Origin: Lepisosteus oculatus
Lineage: Eukaryota > Chordata > Actinopteri > Semionotiformes > Lepisosteidae
Reading direction: 5' to 3'
NCBI RefSeq assembly: GCF_040954835.1
Contig: NC_090712.1
Location: 2,179,284 to 2,243,283, forward strand
DNA: 64,000 nt
Below are positions 14,462-62,000 of this stretch, piece after piece (positions within the stretch are counted from its first letter, which is position 1; each line of letters opens with the position of its first letter). The position numbers were made by a program, and so were the translations under genes. The notes under the pieces were generated by a model. The model made no database searches and was not told where the DNA came from. It saw only the letters and a program-made list of their open reading frames with translations.

Positions 14462-14554
<93 letters not shown>
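14462..14554. repeat. (AAT)n-(ATT)n palindromic microsatellite
   Basis: About 17 AAT units run directly into about 14 ATT units, forming a self-complementary block that could fold into a hairpin or cruciform. Seen directly in the sequence; it lies in intergenic DNA. Confidence 0.95.
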
Positions 14555-21777: not shown

Positions 21778-39088
<17,311 letters not shown>

Positions 39089-41660: not shown

Positions 41661-41799
41661 ATGAAGAGGGTGCGGGCGGAGCAGATCCAGTACACCGTGG
41701 CTCAGTACCTCAAGCGGCGGCAGTATGTGGATGTTGAGAGTTCCCTGAAGGGCGCCAAGCTCTCTCAGACTGCAGAGGAGATGGCAGCTAACCTCACAG
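41661..41799 (+). CDS. TAF5L: TAF5L coding exon 1 (start codon)
   Basis: [20 protein letters not shown]... to EEMAANLT plus one base, with donor GTAGAG. Human starts MKRVRTEQIQ, which fixes the ATG at 41661. The acceptor AG is at 41656-41657. Phase 1 out. Confidence 0.95.
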
Positions 41800-44700
41800 G
41801 TAGAGTGACCACACGTTGCCTGAAGGAGGGGGGGCACGCTGGCCCTGGGGGGGTCAAAGGTCTTTTCTGTGTTGTTTTTTTTCCACTCCTTTTTTAAAAG
41901 CAGCCCCTTGTATGTGAAATTGTTTGACAGTTTGCAGTAATAGCATGTTTTTAGTTAGCAAATAAGTCAGTGTGGAAAAGTGGTCAGGGTGCTGGACACT
42001 TAACTGGAAGGTTGAGGGGTCAAATGCCAGGTGGAACAGCGTTTTAGTCCACTTAAGTGAGGTATTGTACCCACCTTCTAAATTTACTAATGGCTGAACA
42101 TGTAAATCACTGTGGATAAAAGCATCAGTCAAATTTATAATAAGTATGAACTAACGGTGAGAACTGGTTCATTTGTAGCGATGATCTGGAGAGTACTTTC
42201 ATGCACAGATTAGAACTCTAACTCCAAACTGCTCAACATTGATCCAAGTCACAGCGATCATATACTGAAATATAAAGTGTGATATTTTGTGCTTTTCAAA
42301 TCAGATTTAATGTTGCATACTTTACAACACAGGACTGGTAAGAGTTGTGCTCTGTGTGGGTTATTAAATGTCTGATAAACTCAGTCTTCTCCAAGTAAAA
42401 TACGGTGTTTTATAGTATTGGTAGAGGTGTTATTAGGAATCAAAATGATTTCGTTTTCAAATCTTTCTTCTCTCCATCCCTGCAGTTCAGACAGAGTCTG
42501 GCTGTGCCAACGTTGTCTCGGCAGCTCCTTGTCAAGCTGACCCTCAGCAGTATGAACTGCAGTTTGGCCAGCTACACAGCTTTCTCTCTGGTAAGTTGAA
42601 TGTCATCTCTGAGCTACGTCCTCATGCTGACTCACTGAAGGGCTCAGTCTCTTCATAACTGGTGTCAAAGAAATCGACCGTTTTCTTTTCAACAGCTCCT
42701 GAAAGATGGTGAAAATAAATTGTCACCAAAAAAAATGGAAAAAAGAAACGCAACATTTTCTGGAATGAGAATACTGTAGTTTTAGCTTATGTACTTTCAC
42801 AAAAAGTTGTCAATTTGTTTTAAGCCCTCTGACCAGCAATACGGCTTGTGCAGTGAGGCATTGCAACTTGCCAATCACACGAAAGCTCGTTAGGTGCACT
42901 TTTTCCCCAACGAGGTCCAGGTGGGAAAAATGCCTGATCAGGTCACCTTTAAAAAGGCCTTAATTCAAAGCTTAGGTCACTGCAAGAAAAAGGCCACACT
43001 TAGTCAGTTTACTGTGCATCCCATAATGCCTCTAATGTCACCAGAAGCAAGGGAGAGGGCCATTGGTATGCTGCAGGCAGGCATGTCATGTGCCAGACAC
43101 TGTGGAGTAAGCCGCTCCAGTGTGTCCTGAGTGCAGAGAAGGTTTCTGCAGACCGGCAGGATCCAGTCGCCCTCGAGTGACCACACCAGAGCAGGACCGA
43201 CACATCAGACTGGTCCATCTGAGAGATTGTTTCAGATCTGCAGCCCTTACTGCTGCTGAAACTGCCAGCAGACTGCTGATGCCTGCATTAGTCACAGCAC
43301 AGCACAGGCTCCATGCTGCTGGTCTTAGAGCAAGGCGACCTGTCAGAGGTCCTCTCCTCACACCTCCTAGACATCACACCCGACTGGCTTGGGCCAGACA
43401 GAGGGGCTGATGGACTCGTCAGCAGTGGCATCAGGTCCTCTTCATGGATGAGTCACACTTCAGCCTGTTTCGTGCAGACGGGAGGGCCAGAGTGTGGAGG
43501 TGTTGCGTTTCTTTTTTCCATCACTACATACAGATATAAATTTATAATCAGTTAATTTGTATCAATAAATGAAGTGCGAGTGCAGTTTATAACACAGCAA
43601 ACATCTCTTTTCATATGTTCCCGAATTGATACTCTTTCATAAGCTCTTGAAAATCTGCAGCTCCAGCTCAGTCTCTCCCGGGCCTGACCTAGATTCCCGC
43701 TGTTCTCTGTTCCCAGAAGCGGACGTGCCGTGGAGCCGGGAGGTGTCTGCCGTGCTGTACCCCCTCTTCGTCTACCTCCACCTGGACATGGTGCGCTGTG
43801 GGCTGAAGGGCGCGGTCGACAGCTTCTACAGCCACTTCCACGGCCTGTTCCTGCAGGACGGGGAGCAGAAGGACATCGTGGAGCAGCTCCGCAACACCCT
43901 GGCCGTCCAGGACGTCTCCTCCAATCCCAAGCTCTGCGCCTTCCTGCACAACAAGTACGTCGTGCACCTGTCGGACGGCGCCTACAGCTACCTCCTGCGC
44001 TACCTGCAGAGCGCCGACCACACGGCCCTGTGCAGGGTGCTCAGCTCCCACATCCAGGTGGAGGTCACGGCCGGCCTGCCCCTGGACTTCCAGCTGCACG
44101 GCGGGGGCGCAGCGGGCGGCGGCGTGTCCCGGGCAGGCGAGGGGCTGGAGCCGGCCGACGTGCGGGCCGCCATCCTCCAGAACGAGGCGGCGCTGGAGTC
44201 GCTGCAGGACTGCCTCAAGCGCGTGAAGGAGGGGCCCCCCTCGCTCACCACCGTCTGCTTCTACGCCTTCCACCACACCGAGCAGCTCCTCAACACGGCC
44301 GAGATCTCCGGCGACAGCAAGCTGCTGGCCGCCGGCTTCGACTCGTCCTGCGTGAAGCTGTGGAGCCTGCGGGCGCGCCGGCTGAGGGCCCAGCCCCACG
44401 TGGTGGACGTGTCCCGGGTGCACCTGGCCTGCGACGTCCTGGACGAGGAGGTGAGGCGCGGGCCGGCTCAATATCGCAGGCGTGGCAGCCGACGGATATT
44501 ATTGACCCTCCACAGAGAGAACAGAGAACAGCGGGAATCTAGGTCAGGCCCGGGAGAGACATAGCTGGAGCTGCAGGTTTTCAAGAGCGTATGAATGAGT
44601 ATCAATTCGGGAACATATGAAAAGAGATGTTTGCTGTGTTATAAACTGTGTTATAAACTTATTTATTTACAGGCAAATGAAAGGACCTTGTACTTCTCCA

Positions 44701-45856
44701 GCATCTGCTGGATTACTGCACTTATTACTGACATCACGTTGAGCAACTTGTGGATGTCCTTCTGAAGAACTGGGTCTCCTTAGTGACGTTGATAGTAATA
44801 GTTCTAGGTCTTGTAACTCGAGATCTCGTTCCACCCAAAAAATCTCTTTTCAAATGTTCCTTTAATAATCGGTTAATATTCATACTCAATATTCGGGGCT
44901 TACAGGGCTGCAGCTGCAGAGTCGACTTCAGCAAGGCCTCTTGAGCCTCTTAAGCTCTTGAAAATCTGCAGCTCCAGCCCCGTCTCTCCTGGGCCCTGCT
45001 GATAAGATCTTCGCGCTGCGAGAGAAGGAGCCTACTGAGGTGTCTGTTGTGCCTGCAGGCCGATGACGAGGACAGCGCGGGCAGCGAGATGAAGATCCTG
45101 CGGGGCCACTGCGGCCCGGTGTACCGCACGGCCTTCCTGACCGACAGCTCCGGGCTCATCACCTGCTCCGAAGACACCACCATCCGCTACTGGGACCTGG
45201 GCAGCTTCACCAACACCGCCCTCTACCAGGGGCACGCCTACCCCGTGTGGGACGTGGACATCAGCCCCTGCAGCCTGTACTTCGCCAGCAGCTCCCACGA
45301 CCGGACTGCGCGGCTCTGGACGTTCGGCCGCACCTACCCGCTGCGCCTGTACGCCGGCCACCTGGCGGACGTGGACTGCGTCAAGTTCCACCCCAACTCC
45401 AGCTACCTGGCCACCGGCTCCACCGACAAGACTGTGCGGCTGTGGAGCTTGCAGCAGGGCAACTCGGTCCGCCTCTTCACCGGCCACCGCGGGCCCGTGC
45501 TGGCGCTGGCCTTTTCTCCCAACGGCAAGTACCTGGCCTCCGCCGGGGAGGACCAGCGGTTGAAGCTGTGGGACCTGGCGTCGGGCACCCTCTTCAAGGA
45601 CCTGCGGGGCCACACCGACACCATCACCAGCCTGTCCTTCAGCCCCGACAGCAGCCTGGTGGCCTCCTCCTCCATGGACAACTCGGTCCGGGTCTGGGAC
45701 ATCCGCAACGCCTACTGCAGCGCGCCGGCCGATGGCTCCTCCAGCGAGCTGGTGGGCTTGTACACGGGCAACACCAGCAACGTGCTGAGCGTGCAGTTCA
45801 TGGCCTGCAACCTGCTGCTGGTGACCGGCACGGCGCAGGAGAGCCAGGAGCATTAG
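41661..45856 (+). CDS. TAF5L: TAF5L, TAF5-like subunit of SAGA/PCAF histone acetyltransferase complex (whole gene)
   Basis: TAF5L (PAF65-beta) is a nuclear WD40 scaffold of the SAGA/PCAF coactivator complex. Coding exons: 41661-41799, 42486-42590, 43717-44450, 45059-45856. Joined they give 1776 nt, an open frame of 591 codons plus stop; human is 589. Domains: N-terminal helical region (1-80), TAF5 NTD2 domain (about 90-215), a variable Gly-rich loop encoded around 44100-44140, and WD40 repeats from about residue 269 to 570. The protein ends SQEH. Intron phases are 1, 1, 0 and all splice sites are GT-AG. The two large exons are strikingly GC-rich at third positions. ATTAAA at 46010-46015 and AATAAA at 46817-46822 are candidate polyadenylation signals. 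Confidence 0.96.
41800..42485 (+). other. TAF5L: TAF5L intron 2
   Basis: A 0.69-kb intron holding a tRNA-type SINE (41962-42145); GT-AG ends. Confidence 0.85.
41962..42145 (+). repeat. tRNA-type SINE in TAF5L intron 2
   Basis: 'gtgtggaaaagtggtcaggg', 'gctggacacttaactggaag' and 'gaggggtcaaatgccaggtg' follow a common tRNA-derived fish SINE head. The end 'aatcactgtggataaaagca' is the usual 3' tail motif. It is a different family from the 'gagcaaggccc' SINE. Confidence 0.75.
42486..42590 (+). CDS. TAF5L: TAF5L coding exon 2
   Basis: [20 protein letters not shown]... to LHSFLS plus one base. Acceptor CCCTGCAG, donor GTAAGT, phase 1 in and out. It matches human '[20 protein letters not shown]'. 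Confidence 0.95.
42735..43521 (+). mobile_element. Internally deleted Tc1/mariner-like DNA transposon
   Basis: A perfect 21-bp inverted repeat marks the ends (42735-42755 and 43501-43521; core 'agaaacgcaaca'). Between them are pieces of a Tc1 transposase in three frames. First '[18 protein letters not shown]' (helix-turn-helix start, about 43035-43090), then '[18 protein letters not shown]' (second DNA-binding part, about 43165-43230), then '[17 protein letters not shown]' (about 43435-43485, around the second catalytic Asp). The reading then jumps directly to the right inverted repeat, so the last third with the third acidic residue is missing. The frame is also broken by shifts and a stop, so it is inactive. 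It lies in TAF5L intron 3. Confidence 0.9.
43584..43712 (+). repeat. Exon-flanking inverted repeat, copy A (end of TAF5L intron 3)
   Basis: A 129-bp segment that is repeated as its reverse complement at 44519-44647, with about 5 mismatches. It includes the polypyrimidine tract and stops 2-4 bases short of the acceptor AG of the 734-nt exon. A third, direct partial copy is at 44952-44998. Confidence 0.95.
43717..44450 (+). CDS. TAF5L: TAF5L coding exon 3
   Basis: Residues 82-326: the TAF5 NTD2 domain ('[13 protein letters not shown]', '[13 protein letters not shown]', '[13 protein letters not shown]') and the first WD40 blade ('[16 protein letters not shown]'). Ends VLDEE before GTGAGG. Phase 1 in and phase 0 out. 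Very GC-rich, which creates a long antisense open frame that is not a gene. Confidence 0.96.
44519..44647 (-). repeat. Exon-flanking inverted repeat, copy B
   Basis: Reverse complement of 43584-43712 with about 5 differences in 129 bp. It lies 68 bp downstream of the exon donor, so the two arms bracket the exon with roughly 800 bp between them. Confidence 0.95.
44952..44998 (+). repeat. Partial direct copy C of the intron segment
   Basis: 'aagctcttgaaaatctgcag' followed by 'ctccag' and 'gtctctcc' repeats 43641-43687 in the same orientation with about 3-4 differences. It lies about 60 bp before the acceptor of the last exon. Confidence 0.9.
45059..45856 (+). CDS. TAF5L: TAF5L coding exon 4 (WD40 repeats, stop)
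   Basis: Residues 327-591. Five clear WD40 repeats follow each other, for example '[20 protein letters not shown]', '[13 protein letters not shown]', '[13 protein letters not shown]', '[13 protein letters not shown]' and '[13 protein letters not shown]'. The end is '[15 protein letters not shown]' and TAG (45854-45856). Acceptor TGCAG, phase 0. GC-rich throughout. Confidence 0.97.
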
Positions 45857-48800
45857 CAGAGAGACCGCCCTGTGACTGCTCTGCGGAGCCTCGCCCCAGA
45901 CCTCCTCCTTCAAACCCGGGAGGGCTTGGCGGGGAAATTTCTTAGCTCGTGCTCTAAGGGAGGCTGATCTGTGCCAAAATGTATTTGCTATTTTTTTAGC
46001 AGAAGAAGAATTAAATCTATTGACCCTAAAGGTTTTCGCTTTCCCTGCTGCTTCATTTCCGGCTTGCGGTGCGACTCGCGCTCGGGGCGTTTGTTCTCTT
46101 CCGGATGGAGGATTGTTTTGTGGGATGATTTAAAGGCTCGGCGAGTACCCCAGGGATATCGGCAGATCGCGTCCATTCCTGGAGACGGCCGGACGTATCC
46201 CTGTTTGTGTGGCTTCATTTATGTTGTGTAGACGTTTGCGTAGCCGAGGTCATAGATCGTCTAGGAGTGGAGATGAGATCAGGTCGCCCGGGATTTTGTA
46301 GCTTGGGTGCGATCATACTGTAGCTTCGTGTCCTAGCTAGTTTTCCACGTGACCCCCACATGGGAGTGCAGTAATGGGCCGAGACGGCCTGTACCCATGT
46401 CATCGCAGCGTCATGGCAACACACCGAAGTACAATATCATCCTTGTGGATTGGCATTCTGGTTCCTAAGTCACAGTGGAAATTGTACATGGTTTTATTCT
46501 CTCCGTTTGATTAATGAGTAAAACAGCTGTAAGAAGCACGCAGTGTTCCTTTGGACAATGCTTTTGGAGAATAACAGCGCATGGCAGGCACATGTCTGTT
46601 GGCGACATAATGGAGAGGGCACTCTGAGATGAATACAGTGGGAAAAATAACTTATCCTGAAGATTCCTCGAGCACTTTAGCCTGCATATACAAAAAAAAA
46701 AGAACCATTTCTGATCCTAAAGAAAAAACAAACCTCTTCTGACATTTTTTTCCAGGTACCTAATGCCATTCTGCACGGTCAAACTTCCATTCACTGTACA
46801 ACTCTCACTCCTGAGCAATAAAACGTGTGAGATTGTTTAAAAGCTGTATCAGGGCTGTGAGACATCAGGTTTTTCAGGAAGCAGTATCAAATCAGGCGCT
46901 TTAGGCCAGTTCGCAGTGTCTACATTCCTGTCTAAGTTTTAAAATAGCTTTAGGTCTCATACCTAATGTTGTGCATACCTGACTGATTTTACAGGCAGCA
47001 GATGAAGTCAGAACTTCTGCTTAAGTGTATTTGCCAGAATCATGAATGTGACCCTAAAATATGCCTTCAGAAAGGTGTTTTGAGGAGCAGGTTATCCTCA
47101 AGATGTCTTATTGCTGTACTTCCTCTTTGGAAGATTAGTTTCCGGCTTTCTGATTTCCAGCGGTTCTTCAGTTGAACACGTGAGTTGAAATGCACTTAAG
47201 GTGAAAATCTCCTGCGTTTTACACCTAGGGTTAAGTTCTGACCTTAAAAGGGGAACATTCAGATGTTTTAATGGAACACTTGGCCTTAACTGGCATTAGA
47301 AGAGAATGATTTTATGTCAAGTGTAAGAGCCCAGCTGCAGATGTAACTGGATGCAGTCAGTTTCTAAACTGAACAGGGGACGTCAGATAGACTCTCAGAG
47401 CCCCCGGACATTTTACACTTTCAAAACTAGTTCAGTTTGGAGAATAAAAATGTCATCATTTGAAGTTCTTGGAATGCTTTTTGTATAAACCTTTTTTTGT
47501 AGTGATGTATCCTTTTAAAGGCTTAGGAAGGTGGGCAGCTTTATTTAAAAAAATGGCTCTGTCTGCTATGAAGAAGGACTGCACCTTCATGGCAGCTACA
47601 CAGAAAGTCCCTTCAATTACACTTTTTAATAATAATATCACTTTATTAACCCTTTACAATTTCTTGCATTAGGAATGATCTTTTCGCATACCCCAGCTTG
47701 CTCTCCATGAGACGCACTTTCTGCAAGGAGGTGTGCATTCTCTGTGCAAAGGAAGAGGATTAAAGTACATGAGAACTTTATTCAGTCACTTGTGTAGAAA
47801 TGTACCTAGATTGCCATTTTAGAAGAGGGAGGGTAGAAATGAATTTCCTCCCTGTCACAGGGGTTAATTGATATTAAATTTGCTTTACAAGATGGTCTGA
47901 TGAAAACCCCCCATGGTGCCAGTGCAGTAACACTGCCCTTGAAACCACTAGTAAGTCATGCTGGCTCAGCACTGAGCTCTGAGGTGGGGTGTGTCTGCTT
48001 CAGGAAATGCTCACCCTCTGTGGGTGGAGATAAGTGTCCTTCTCGTCTCTGTGGTATGCAAGAGCCTGTTCCAGGGTGCTGAGCCCAAGCCAGCCTGACC
48101 AGTTTGGTTTCTGGTTTGCTTCAGCCTTCATCACTGGGATACTTCAAGGGAAAGAGTTCCTTGTTCTTACTGTCATCAGTCTGTGTAATTGTATATTATG
48201 TCTGATCTGGGAACGAGAACAAAAACTAAACTTCTGCTCACGCAAGGAGGTTTCAGGTTGCCATCCACACAGTTTGAATTTTAGGTGTGCAAGAACAATT
48301 TTAGTTTCTTAACATGATTCTGTATGAAAACGGTTTAAAATTGCACTCTTATTGTCCCTATTAATATTTAATGGGTCATTACAAGTAATCAAAGACATGT
48401 AAATGTTGGTGTACTGATTCACATTTATATCCAGATGATTTACATTTGTTACATTCATGTAGTGTATGTCCAGACCAGTGACGAGGTTGTTTCAATTACT
48501 CCAGAGGGCACAGTTAATTCCCAACATTGGAATTAACAGCAGGTTTTATAACTGAGCATCCATGAATTATTCAAGGTTGAAAGTATATAAGACTTTTGCA
48601 AAATGTGTATTTCTTGTTAGGAATCGGTTGGGAGGAATTCTTTGTCTTCAGGAGGATCTTCATTGTTGGTCTGGGTGGTACTGTCTGTCCTTAAACTACA
48701 GGAAAGAGAAAAGGAAGTAATATCCCTTTGCACAATAAGTAAATTCTTACAGCAGGTTGTTGGCTTTCTAGTTATTAGTCAGTGGAGAAAGGGGGCAGGA

Positions 48801-53054: not shown

Positions 53055-56000
53055 GTATGGGGGTCCTAGTGCCCGATTCGCCGTTGATCGTGTTGGGGTT
53101 AATCGCCGGGGTGCTTTAGACCTACTCCCCCTGTCCGCTGGGATACTGCCGTGAGCTGCGGTTCACTTAGCGTTGGCAGACTTTCCAAATGAAGTGGTTG
53201 GTCAGCGTGGTGTATGTGAAGGAACTCGAGAGGGTATATTAGAAAACCCACGGCTGGGTGTTAATTCATCTAGGGAGCAGAACTGGATAAATGACGTCCC
53301 CGTGCGTCTCTAGAGAAAACAGTCCCAGTCACTGAAAATAACGACGTGACAAAAATGCCTTCACCTTATTTTTATAGAAAATTCAAAGGTTTTATTTTTT
53401 TCTTTTCCTGTCCCGACATTTCTCACAGAGGGGCGACTAAAGTTTGCCCAGCAGGGAAGATAAGGCAGTAATGGAGGGCAGAGGAAGGGTTAACAATTGA
53501 ATGGTAGTTAAAATAGTTAATAATGCCCCGGTGCTGTGAGATTACTTGGCTTGAGGTGCCCTGACGTAACATCTGGACGGGCAGCTGGAAGAGCGTTTGG
53601 AACCGTCCTGATAGTCTCTCTTTCTCTCTCTCCTCCGCCTTCAGCGGCCATGGGGTTCCTGGCGGTTTCCAGCACGGTGACCATGTCGGCTCCCTTCTTC
53701 CTGGGCAGAGTGATTGACACGATCTACGCCAGCCCGGCCCAGGAGCTGGGCGCGTCTCTGACCTCCCTGTGCGCCGTGCTCTCGGGGGTGTTCCTCTGCG
53801 GGGCCGCGGCCAATGCGGCTCGGGTCTACCTCATGCAAACCTCAGGTACCGGTCCGGGCAGGGCGTTCCGCTCTGCACGTACCTCGATCCTGCCGGGGGT
53901 CTTGGTTTGTGAGCGTATTCCTAAACCTTTTTGTCGTGTTCATTCTTCTCCCCCCATTTGTTTTTTGGAAGACACAAACCCCAAATGTTTTCTAACTCCA
54001 AATGCTACAAAATATATGAGTTAAAAAGAACACCTGTTTTTTGTTTTGCTAACCCTCAAATTTGAATCCTTGAAGACTGGTGTCAGTTCCCAACTTTTTG
54101 TGTTGATGTACTGTAATGCAAGAAAATGTGTTAACTCTGGGTGGATTTTTTTACCAGTATGTCCCATTCTGGTTAAAAGAAGGTACTCAGAAGTACAGCA
54201 GATTGAGCTGGTATACAGAAAACATACAGATGACAAACCAATGTAGTGAGTTAATCTCAGTATAGCCTAAGGATTTTGAATTAATCCTCACATGAATTCT
54301 CTTTTGACTTTTGAAGGCTTTATTTCATGTGTAACCTACGTAGAACAAAACAGAGCCTTTATTGCACACTGAGTCAAGATGTCTGCTAACAGGACAAGTT
54401 TCTTGCACATGGATGCCAAGTCCAATGTATGCCCAGAAAATTGAAATTTTATTTTTTGGATAAGTCACTTCAGAAGCTTTTTTGGGCTGGGGGAGTTGCT
54501 TTGCAATTCTCCTGCCAAAAATATCCGCTGACCTTTCCCAAAACTGCAAGATTTTTTTGGGCACATTTCTATTTTCCGTCTCTTTGTTCACATTTAGTTT
54601 TTCACCCAGATCAGCCCCAATCCTGCAGGTTTTATAAGTCACCTTGCGTTCTAAATTCACCCAACAAGTTTGTAAACCTAATCACGTCTAAAGATTGGAA
54701 ACACTTCTAAGTTATTGATTAAGCAAGGAATTTGGTTGATTAAGAGCAGTGTAGGACTGAAGGTCTGTCTTCCTAATGATCTGAAAATTGTGTTAAATGA
54801 GTCTCCTGCAGTTTTTTCCATGCCTTTAAATCAGTAATATTTACTCCTGGTCCTGGGAGAGATTTTCATGTCTAGAAGATCTCATTCCACTGTGGACACT
54901 TCATGACTGTTTTTGAATCAATTGCTCATTTAATTGGTTCACACTGCCATTGTCTTCAGATCTAGTTATCTACAAAACCTGGAGGTATGCAGGAGTGAAG
55001 ATTGCTGCTTTAGATTAGAAAATGGTGACCAATTGTATAAAACATGCTGGATTGGGGCGATGTAGATGTCTAAATCTGCATTATCTCTTGCAGAATCTAA
55101 GAGATTAGGGCTCTGCAATGATTTTCTGAACCATTTAGTGCAAATTTCTCTCTCACCCAGATGTTGTTGTTGGGCTTTTGTTGCAATAAGTGTGTGTTTG
55201 CCCTTTGCAGTGACAAAAAGATGAAAGTGAAATATTTTGTCTGTGATAATTCTTTCAGGACAGCAGATTGTGAGAAATTTACGAGAATCCCTTTTTTCCT
55301 CAATTTTGAGGCAGGAGGTGGGCTTCTTCGACAAGACGCGCACCGGCGAGCTCGTTAACCGCCTCTCTGCGGACACCGCCCTCATCGGGCGCGCCGTCAC
55401 TGACAACCTCTCGGATGGCCTCCGCGCTGTGGCTCAGGCCACAGCCGGGGTCGGCATGATGGTAAAGTGCTGACCAGGCCAGCGTGATAGGCGGCTTTCT
55501 CGAAAACTGCTCACCTGAGTGCAAGTCTCTGTTGGGGTGCAGACTCTAGATTTGAGAGTCGTAATCTGCACGATTAGATGCAGACTCTAGATTTGAGAGT
55601 CGGTAATCTGCACGATTAGATGCAGACTCTAGATTTGAGAGTCGGTAATCTGCACGATTAGATGCAGACTCTAGATTTGAGAGTCGGTAATCTGCACGAT
55701 TAGATGCAGACTCTAGATTTGAGAGTCGGTAAACTGCACGATTATATGCAGGCTCTAGATCTGAGAGCCACTAATCTGCCAGATTACATACAGACTCAAA
55801 ATCCGAGAGTCAGTAATCCACAAGATTACAAGACGACGTTAGATTTGAGAATCGGTAATCTGCAGAGGTCTTAACTCCGACTGAAAAGAGAGTTCGTTTA
55901 ATTCTCTAGGGAGTAAGTGTTGGATGATCCTGTTCATGACCATGGATAATGCATGTCTGTTTGACATTTTACTTCATGGAGCATAATTGATCATTTCACA

Positions 56001-59000: not shown

Positions 59001-62000
59001 GACATACTGTATGCACACTTGGTTGGAAGGGTGTCGTCTGGGTGAGGTCCTTTCCATGTTGGGAATTATTGGATGACTGCTTTCAGCCCCTGACATCATT
59101 CAGTGGTTATCAGATATCGTAGTTCCGTCTTTTTGACTGGTTACCAACTCGTGATTCTCATGCATAGCCCTTCGGATGTTAATGTAAAGCCTCATATTGG
59201 ACACAACAGCCCCTGTCCACCAAATGACCTCGGTTTATCTTCTTTTGTAACCCGCTGCTTTTCTCAATAATTAAAAAGAAAGAGTGCAACACACTATGTT
59301 TCCAGCAGCCCTGGGATGGGAGACCTCCGAGGGAAACTGGGTCGCTGCTGCAAGTGGTGATGGTGAACCAATAGGGGGCGCTCTTCCCCTGGGCTATATT
59401 CCCAATCCACTGCATTTGTACAGTGACTGGAGATATGAGGTCCTTGAAGATCCCAGGGTGCTGTTGTAACGTTAGAGGCGTTACCCCAGAGTCCTGACTC
59501 GATTCAGATCTGGGTCTGGCCTTCCTGAGGTTCCCCTGTAAATCAGTTGGTGGCTCAGCCTGTCAATTCTCTCCCTGATCGATCGGCTGTGCAGAGGGGC
59601 TGCTGTGTATCGCCCAGCTGGGTGCTGTACTTCGCTGCTGGGTGAAGCCAGTCCCTTGCTTTATGTAAAGCTCTAATCCCTTGAGATTAAATTGCGTACA
59701 TTCAGGGAATTATGGGTTATTTTTTGTCTTTTTCAACCGCAGAAGGAATCGCGCTGAGGCCGGAGCAGCTGAAGGGGGAGCTGGAGTTCCGCGACGTGAC
59801 GTTCTCGTACCCGACCCGCAAGGACGCGCCCGTCTTCCGCGGCCTCAGCCTGTCTGTGCCCGCTGGCTCGGTGATGGCGGTCGTGGGCCCCAGCGGCTCG
59901 GGGAAATCGACTCTGGTGTCGCTGCTGCTAAGACTCTACGATCCGGATTCCGGTGAGCCGTAGGCCCAGGAAATTGAGCAGGCCTCTTTCATTCTTGGTT
60001 TTTTTTTTTTTGGAATTATTATTTGGTGATTTTCGTCATTGATCTGTTTGTTGTTTAATTACACATACTCATACCAGCTCGTACCCAATGAGACAACATT
60101 GACATGTGAATTGAAACCAAGTTTGGGTGCATGCAGGGAGACATGGTGTTGTCACTGGCAATGCAACTGCCTCAAAGCCTCAGAGTCCTCGGTTTGATTC
60201 TGATCTCATACGCCTGTGTGTCTGGAGCCTGCATGTACACTCTTGTTTGCACGGGTTATCTCTGGGTCTGGATCTGGTCTGAACTGTCCCCTCCCCTGTC
60301 GACTGCTGACCCCTCCTGTCTGAGCACAGTCACCTGCAGTATCTCCCAGAGCTTTGATTCATCACGACCCTCGACTGGAGAAGTGGCGTTCTCACAATAG
60401 ATGGACAAATTGCATATGCTTAATTGCAATTAAGAAAGTAGATTGAGTATTATGTCGTTGGCAAAACCCGACCACAAATTCCACAGTGAGCTGAAGAGTT
60501 TAGAATAGGAATTTAGTTTTTATCAAAAATGACTTGCTGCTGTACCGGACATGGAGCAGCATCGTTTTACCGTGCTCGCAGATCTGATGGGGAATCTGAT
60601 GGATCCGTCTGTCCTGCAGGTGTAATTGCTGTCGATGGTTATGATATTCGGGATCTGAATCCATACTGCCTACGGAGCAACATTGGGACTGTGAGCCAGG
60701 TGAGTCCCCAGTAAAACATCAGCTACAGATCCATCTTTTTTTTTTATTCCAAGGTTCTTTTTGTTGGTTGCATGAGCACATTATTGTGATTACGTCATCT
60801 CCACTGTGAAGATTGAAAGTAGCACTGTTAATAATAATAATAGTAATAATAATAGTAATTGCTTACACTTTATATAGCGCTTTTCTGGACACTCCACTCA
60901 AAGCGCTTTACAGGTAATGGGGATCCCCTCCACCACCACCAGTGTGCAGCCCCACCTGGGTGATGCGACGGCAGCCATAGTGCGCCAGAACGCTCCCCAC
61001 ACATCAGCTATTAGTGGGGAGGAGAGGTCAGTTAAGAGATGGGGATTATTAGGAGGCCATGATTGGTAAGAGCTAATGGGAAATTTGGCCAGGACACCTG
61101 GTTACACCCCTACTCTTTTCGAGAAACACCCTGGGATTTTTAATGACCACAGAGAGTCAGGGCCTCGGTTTTACGTCTCATCCGAAGGATGGTGCCTGTT
61201 TACGGAATAGTGTCCCCGTCTCTATACTGGGGCATTAGGACCCACATGGACTGCGGGGTGAGCTTCCAGCAGCAACCTTACTTTTTCCCAGGAGTCTCCC
61301 ATCCAGGTACTGACCAGGCTCACACCTGCTGAGCTTCGGTGGGCGACCAGTTGTGAGTTGCAGAGTGATATGGCTGCTGGAAAGTAGCACTGTTACTTGT
61401 AATCAGCTGGCTGACAGTGGTGTGTGTGCTATGATGAACAAGTGGCCATCTTGACATGTCTCCTTCTGCTCCCCTTTCCTCACTGCTGTGCGTTATGAAT
61501 CCGGTGTTTCTCACACATGGATCTTCTTAAAGACTCAGAAAGACTTTAGTCTCGTGATGCGCCGGCGCCTTTGCTCTCTGGTTCGGGCTTCCTCGCGATC
61601 TTGTCCTGTGTGTCCTCCCTGTGCCCAGGAGCCCGTGCTCTTCTCCGGCTCCATCGCGGAGAACATCGCGTACGGCGCGCCGGACCCCTCCCGGGTCTCC
61701 GCCCAGGACATCCACAGGGCCGCCCAGATCGCCAACGCCCACGGCTTCGTGCAGCACTTCCCCAGGGGCTACGACACCATGGTGGGGGAGAAGGGGATCC
61801 TTCTGTCAGGTGAGGGTGGCCTCCAGGGAGAGCTTTCGTCAACAGAGAATGACGAGCAGCTTTCACACATATGTCCATCCGTGCCTCCCAAGCCTATTCG
61901 AGAACATCTGTTGTTAACAGCAATAAAAGAAAAAGTACAACAAAGTTCGTCCTTTTCTTTAGAATGTTTATGCACTGAACACATTTGCTAGAGTGTCTGA

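Follow-up and report, generated by a model that had tools for sequence, protein, structure and literature searches.

A near-perfect inverted repeat flanking coding exon 3 of TAF5L: probably a local duplication that is neutral and affects splicing weakly at most

Coding exon 3 of TAF5L is flanked by two inverted copies of one sequence, arm A at the end of the preceding intron and arm B in the following intron, which match over 130 nt with five mismatches and no gaps (96.2%, ungapped alignment). This arrangement is real and of a known kind; what it does to the gene is a prediction from modelled RNA folds. Overall, the repeat is best read as a local duplication, probably neutral, that affects splicing weakly if at all. 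The account that, on balance, appears probable is that B arose once as a local inverted duplicate of A near an older related copy, C, that it has no selected function, and that TAF5L splicing is mostly normal. The window referred to below is the whole 64-kb stretch of DNA that was analysed, and positions are numbered from its first letter.

The gene and its inverted repeat

The TAF5L gene model was built by sequence. An open frame of 591 aa results when 41661-41799, 42486-42590, 43717-44450 and the sequence from 45059 on are joined; three candidates were tried for the end of coding exon 1, and 41799 yields this frame. The 244 codons of exon 3 match the TAF5L chain of PDB 7ktr at E 5.1e-98, 11 distinct PDB sequences match the exon at E up to 0.001, and Pfam places TFIID_NTD2 in exon 3 and WD40 repeats in coding exon 4; the PDB match and the open frame confirm that the repeat brackets a true TAF5L coding exon, as the earlier note had proposed. 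The acceptor of exon 3 reads CAGAAG, and a site 3 nt later is also possible, with the frame kept and a product of 590 aa. Third-position G+C is 0.98 in 43719-44450 and 0.96 in 45062-45891 (a range that extends past the stop codon at 45854-45856), compared with 44.8% G+C for the window. The upstream intron, second when counted by coding exons, also holds a decayed Tc1-like element at 42735-43521, with 21-nt perfect terminal inverted repeats and a match to HTH_Tnp_Tc3_2 (E 1.6e-07, 31.9 bits; cut-off 31.5).

The repeat itself closely follows its first description as a near-perfect pair of about 129 bp with about five mismatches, the second arm beginning 68 bp after the donor of the exon: B does start 68 nt past the exon end at 44450, and A stops 4 nt short of the exon, with the AG at 43715-43716. 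Complementary arms are thus present in both introns adjoining one exon. The longest exact run common to A and B is 52 nt, and the 3' 42 nt of A (43671-43712), which contain a candidate branch point recognised by eye (CTGAC, 43684-43688) and the polypyrimidine tract, have no mismatch to B; the exon's own tract does lie within the arm, as had been claimed. A looser extension of the match covers 149 nt at 91% (43564-43712 and 44519-44667, spacer 806 nt), of which the extra 19 nt are poorly matched. Coordinates are collected in Table 1.

Table 1. Positions, strands and character of the TAF5L exons and of the related copies around exon 3
Feature	Position	Strand	Description
Arm A	43583..43712	+	End of the intron preceding coding exon 3
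TAF5L coding exon 3	43717..44450	+	734 nt; A-B pairing would loop it out
Arm B	44519..44648	-	Copy of A in reverse orientation, within the intron following coding exon 3
12-nt unit at outer edge of B	44635..44658	+	Tandem, twice (once in A); seen by eye, visible in the alignment
C block 1	44838..44860	+	Against 43599-43621, 21/23 (91% to A)
Weak third A/C block	44862..44891	+	Against 43541-43567; order swapped relative to A
C block 2	44948..44995	+	Against 43637-43684, 44/48 (92% to A); against B, 41/48 (85%)
TAF5L coding exon 4 to stop codon	45059..45856	+	WD40 repeats (Pfam, open frame)

Within the window the A/B match has a BLAST E of 5e-55. The window contains 13 inverted pairs of at least 40 nt spaced within 5 kb: A/B, a pair formed by B and C, eight inside an AAT repeat at 14462-14554, and three at 73-78%. 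At 80% identity or above BLAST leaves two, A/B and B/C, its pair filter removing the self-overlapping AAT repeat; ten windows shuffled within 200-base blocks gave no pair of at least 60 nt at 80% or above. With this E-value and no such pair in the shuffled windows, A/B is not a chance match.

Two small features found by eye adjoin B. A small imperfect palindrome, TCAATATC ... GATATTATTGA, occupies 44468-44505 between the donor and B, and an acceptor-like AT-rich tract followed by CAG, located at B's outer edge (44659-44673, AG at 44671-44672), could define a cryptic exon.

A third copy and the direction of copying

A third, diverged copy, C, which the earlier note missed, shares its intron with B, upstream of coding exon 4, and is oriented like A. 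It consists of two blocks (BLAST E 1.5e-14 and 0.001) whose spacing exceeds that in A, and A, B and C all fall inside 1.42 kb. The weak third block shared by A and C gave p=0.004 in 500 shuffles, about 0.03 once corrected as one of seven comparisons; it lies outside the 130-nt A/B core, which fits B being copied from only part of A. A profile built from A, B and C was run against the 64-kb window with nhmmer, without any filters, and gave no further copy below E=1; six additional hits had E 1 to 9.9, one of them within C. Because the C blocks are part of the profile, their E-values in this search are biased and the BLAST values are the unbiased ones. An exact 26-nt pattern from the repeat had no match in viral contigs, a weak comparison since that collection is non-vertebrate and near records may have been left out.

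Other repeated sequences occur in the window. A dispersed family at 1088-1306, 27343-27594, 37832-38095 and 47632-47717, its members about 85-92% alike, was not matched by the A/B/C profile; direct, tandem-like repeats about 80-86% alike occupy 55538-55864; and a 5S rRNA-like sequence on the minus strand at 61264-61381 (Rfam score 43.2, gathering score 38) may be a pseudogene or a SINE derived from 5S.

Across the 71 positions aligned in all three copies, A and B agree against C at five, A and C against B at three, and B and C against A at none, with all three different at one; the fifth A/B difference falls outside the part covered by C. C therefore sides with A at three of three resolvable A/B differences, a small count for which the two-sided chance is 1 in 4. 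This is suggestive, not strong, evidence that the resolvable changes sit on B, and, since A agrees with C at every site that can be judged, B probably arose from A by local inverted duplication.

The edges of the core differ. On the exon side A/B homology stops abruptly (flanks, p=0.36). The outer edge of B is less clean, as the 149-nt extension indicates, and the best flank match there, at a different offset, agrees at 11 of 12 AT-rich bases (p=0.048). Comparisons of the A and C flanks on the exon side (p=0.29), of the middle of A with reversed C (p=0.088), of the left flank of C (p=0.98) and of the A and B flanks on the same strand (p=0.15) gave no support for homology.

Origin of the repeat

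The pattern is best accounted for by a single inverted duplication of A, which would have created B, probably when the polymerase switched templates or in a related repair process, at a site where the older relative C was already present; B itself would have no selected function. The earlier note had raised ongoing gene conversion as a source of the high identity, and the corresponding alternative is an old inverted pair whose arms stayed similar through conversion, or through homogenisation by template switching. The available part of a yeast survey describes such arm homogenisation, with numerous cases for long inverted repeats as well (PMC8604942), but the spacers given there reach 70 nt and that between A and B is 806 nt. 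The similarity beside the core is marginal, and the 149-nt extension, the patchy matches of a global alignment and the outer flank match (p=0.048) leave room for some older homology there; convincing diverged homology next to the core was nevertheless not found, the exon-side flanks giving p=0.36 and the outer match being a 12-nt AT-rich stretch. Ongoing conversion is therefore unsupported, and the old pair is quite improbable. The resolvable differences, all three on B, fit a single duplication followed by drift, as against gene conversion, and the single duplication is favoured over a homogenised old pair.

More weight, though still on the unlikely side, is given to A, B and C being three insertions of an unrecognised dispersed repeat, such as a low-copy mobile element. 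Three related copies in two orientations speak for such an element, and the decayed Tc1-like element in the upstream intron indicates that introns here do accept insertions; yet the rest of the window holds no other copy below E=1 (nhmmer), no common ends or target duplication were seen by eye, and A ends just 4 nt short of the exon, where an insertion would be unusual. A fold-back artefact of assembly is scarcely credible as the source of the A/B pair. The arms differ by five gapless substitutions and B carries an additional 12-nt unit, whereas a fold-back copy of one molecule usually has neither. A one-off local duplication of A thus remains the preferred origin.

Predicted pairing and the acceptor

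That the arms could pair across the exon, and that pairing could hide the splice site, had both been anticipated, and structure prediction agrees on each point. The calculated duplex energies are -249.4 kcal/mol for A-B and -107.7 kcal/mol for B-C, and in the minimum free energy fold of 42591-45059 (both introns and the exon) 127 of 149 A positions, and no C position, are paired with B. The candidate branch point and the tract are predicted to be closed in the hairpin: adding B lowers the mean unpaired probability of 43684-43716 from 0.36 to 0.06, and shuffled-B controls give 0.35 (sd 0.03, n=15). When the transcript was folded at 15 growing 3' ends, the same region had a mean unpaired probability of 0.28 to 0.49 for the six ends preceding B; it was 0.35 at 44530, fell to 0.12 at 44545 and was 0.06 for all seven ends from 44560. 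The fold model is thermodynamic and ignores proteins and timing, and the unpaired probabilities were computed with 194 nt of the upstream intron. In the model, then, B closes the acceptor region, and does so only once more than 800 nt past it have been transcribed, which takes about 15-30 s at usual polymerase speeds.

Energies calculated after deletion of A, B or C were set aside because the deletions alter length too. For known structured RNAs in 42591-45059, Rfam gave two hits with E no higher than 1, neither of which reached the gathering score.

Consequences for splicing

In the pre-mRNA, A and B could form a hairpin of about 130 bp that closes over the polypyrimidine tract and candidate branch point serving exon 3. 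Most transcripts would have this acceptor recognised before or despite pairing and would be spliced normally; in some the hairpin would prevail, so that exon 3 is skipped or an intron is retained. Near neutrality is suggested by the consideration that a conserved gene keeps such a hairpin only if most of its transcripts splice properly. Skipping of exon 3 would leave 83 codons followed by a stop at the beginning of coding exon 4; a premature stop in a last exon, if coding exon 4 is the last, might spare the transcript from nonsense-mediated decay.

The earlier note had also suggested that the flanking repeats favour a circular RNA. Its premise of stable pairing is upheld in prediction, with A-B pairing stable and B-C pairing nearly absent, but the case for circularisation itself is weakened, the candidate branch point and tract lying inside the arm and being closed in the predicted hairpin. 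Skipping or weak splicing would accordingly rank above circles, since back-splicing requires the acceptor that A covers. Flanking inverted repeats do promote circularisation, and the accessible part of one review describes constructs in which repeats of 30-40 nt and introns of less than 100 nt sufficed, so that arms close to splice sites need not prevent circles (PMC11766002); an exon-containing lariat is another route (PMC4479058, as far as its available text goes). Mammalian circle-forming genes tend to low G+C, and many mammalian circles resemble by-products linked to young transposable elements, according to the part of PMC8516420 available; exon 3, at a third-position G+C of 0.98, is unlike such low-G+C genes. 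A literature search, judged by titles and abstract openings, found no circular RNA of TAF5L. Back-splicing to a 734-nt circle of exon 3 is distinctly unlikely. Very improbable as a whole is a working splice switch, in which closing of the acceptor would replace the SAGA subunit with an 83-codon product and ADAR editing, helicases or polymerase speed would set the balance. Mostly normal splicing, with the hairpin prevailing in some transcripts, remains the preferred outcome.

If the hairpin does affect splicing, the locus is a natural test of a flanking-repeat arm that contains the acceptor itself, where the structure expected to favour circles could equally stand in their way. Should it be without effect, the locus would show how well splice-site recognition in a conserved gene tolerates a highly stable hairpin that competes with it. 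In both cases this is a single locus, of a known kind.

Relation to known systems

The RABL5 minigene (PMC2533698, cited here from the available part of the report) shares with TAF5L long inverted copies able to pair near an acceptor. There the near Alu lies 24 nt from the exon, which turns alternative. Constitutive inclusion was regained when 800 nt were inserted between the exon and the Alus, and insertions of less than 68 nt brought skipping back. By that measure A, at 4 nt, would be near enough to matter. Skipping increased when 800 nt more separated one Alu from the other, and inclusion is said to be suppressed by the near Alu on its own, so that RABL5 is no proof of pairing acting alone. 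Both RABL5 Alus are in the upstream intron and belong to a common mobile element, whereas the TAF5L copies flank the exon and the splice signals lie inside the arm.

Local inverted duplications attributed to template switching or templated insertion, as described in the partial accounts available, likewise consist of an inverted copy of nearby sequence, although at TAF5L the event itself is deduced from its product. Exon loop-out by stems between flanking introns (PMC7404189, available part) has the geometry predicted here, with skipping as the expected result; alternative splicing of TAF5L is, by contrast, a prediction. The flanking repeats that promote circular RNA (PMC11766002, available part) resemble the TAF5L pair in having arms in both introns beside one exon, and differ from it in that the upstream arm at TAF5L includes the acceptor signals.
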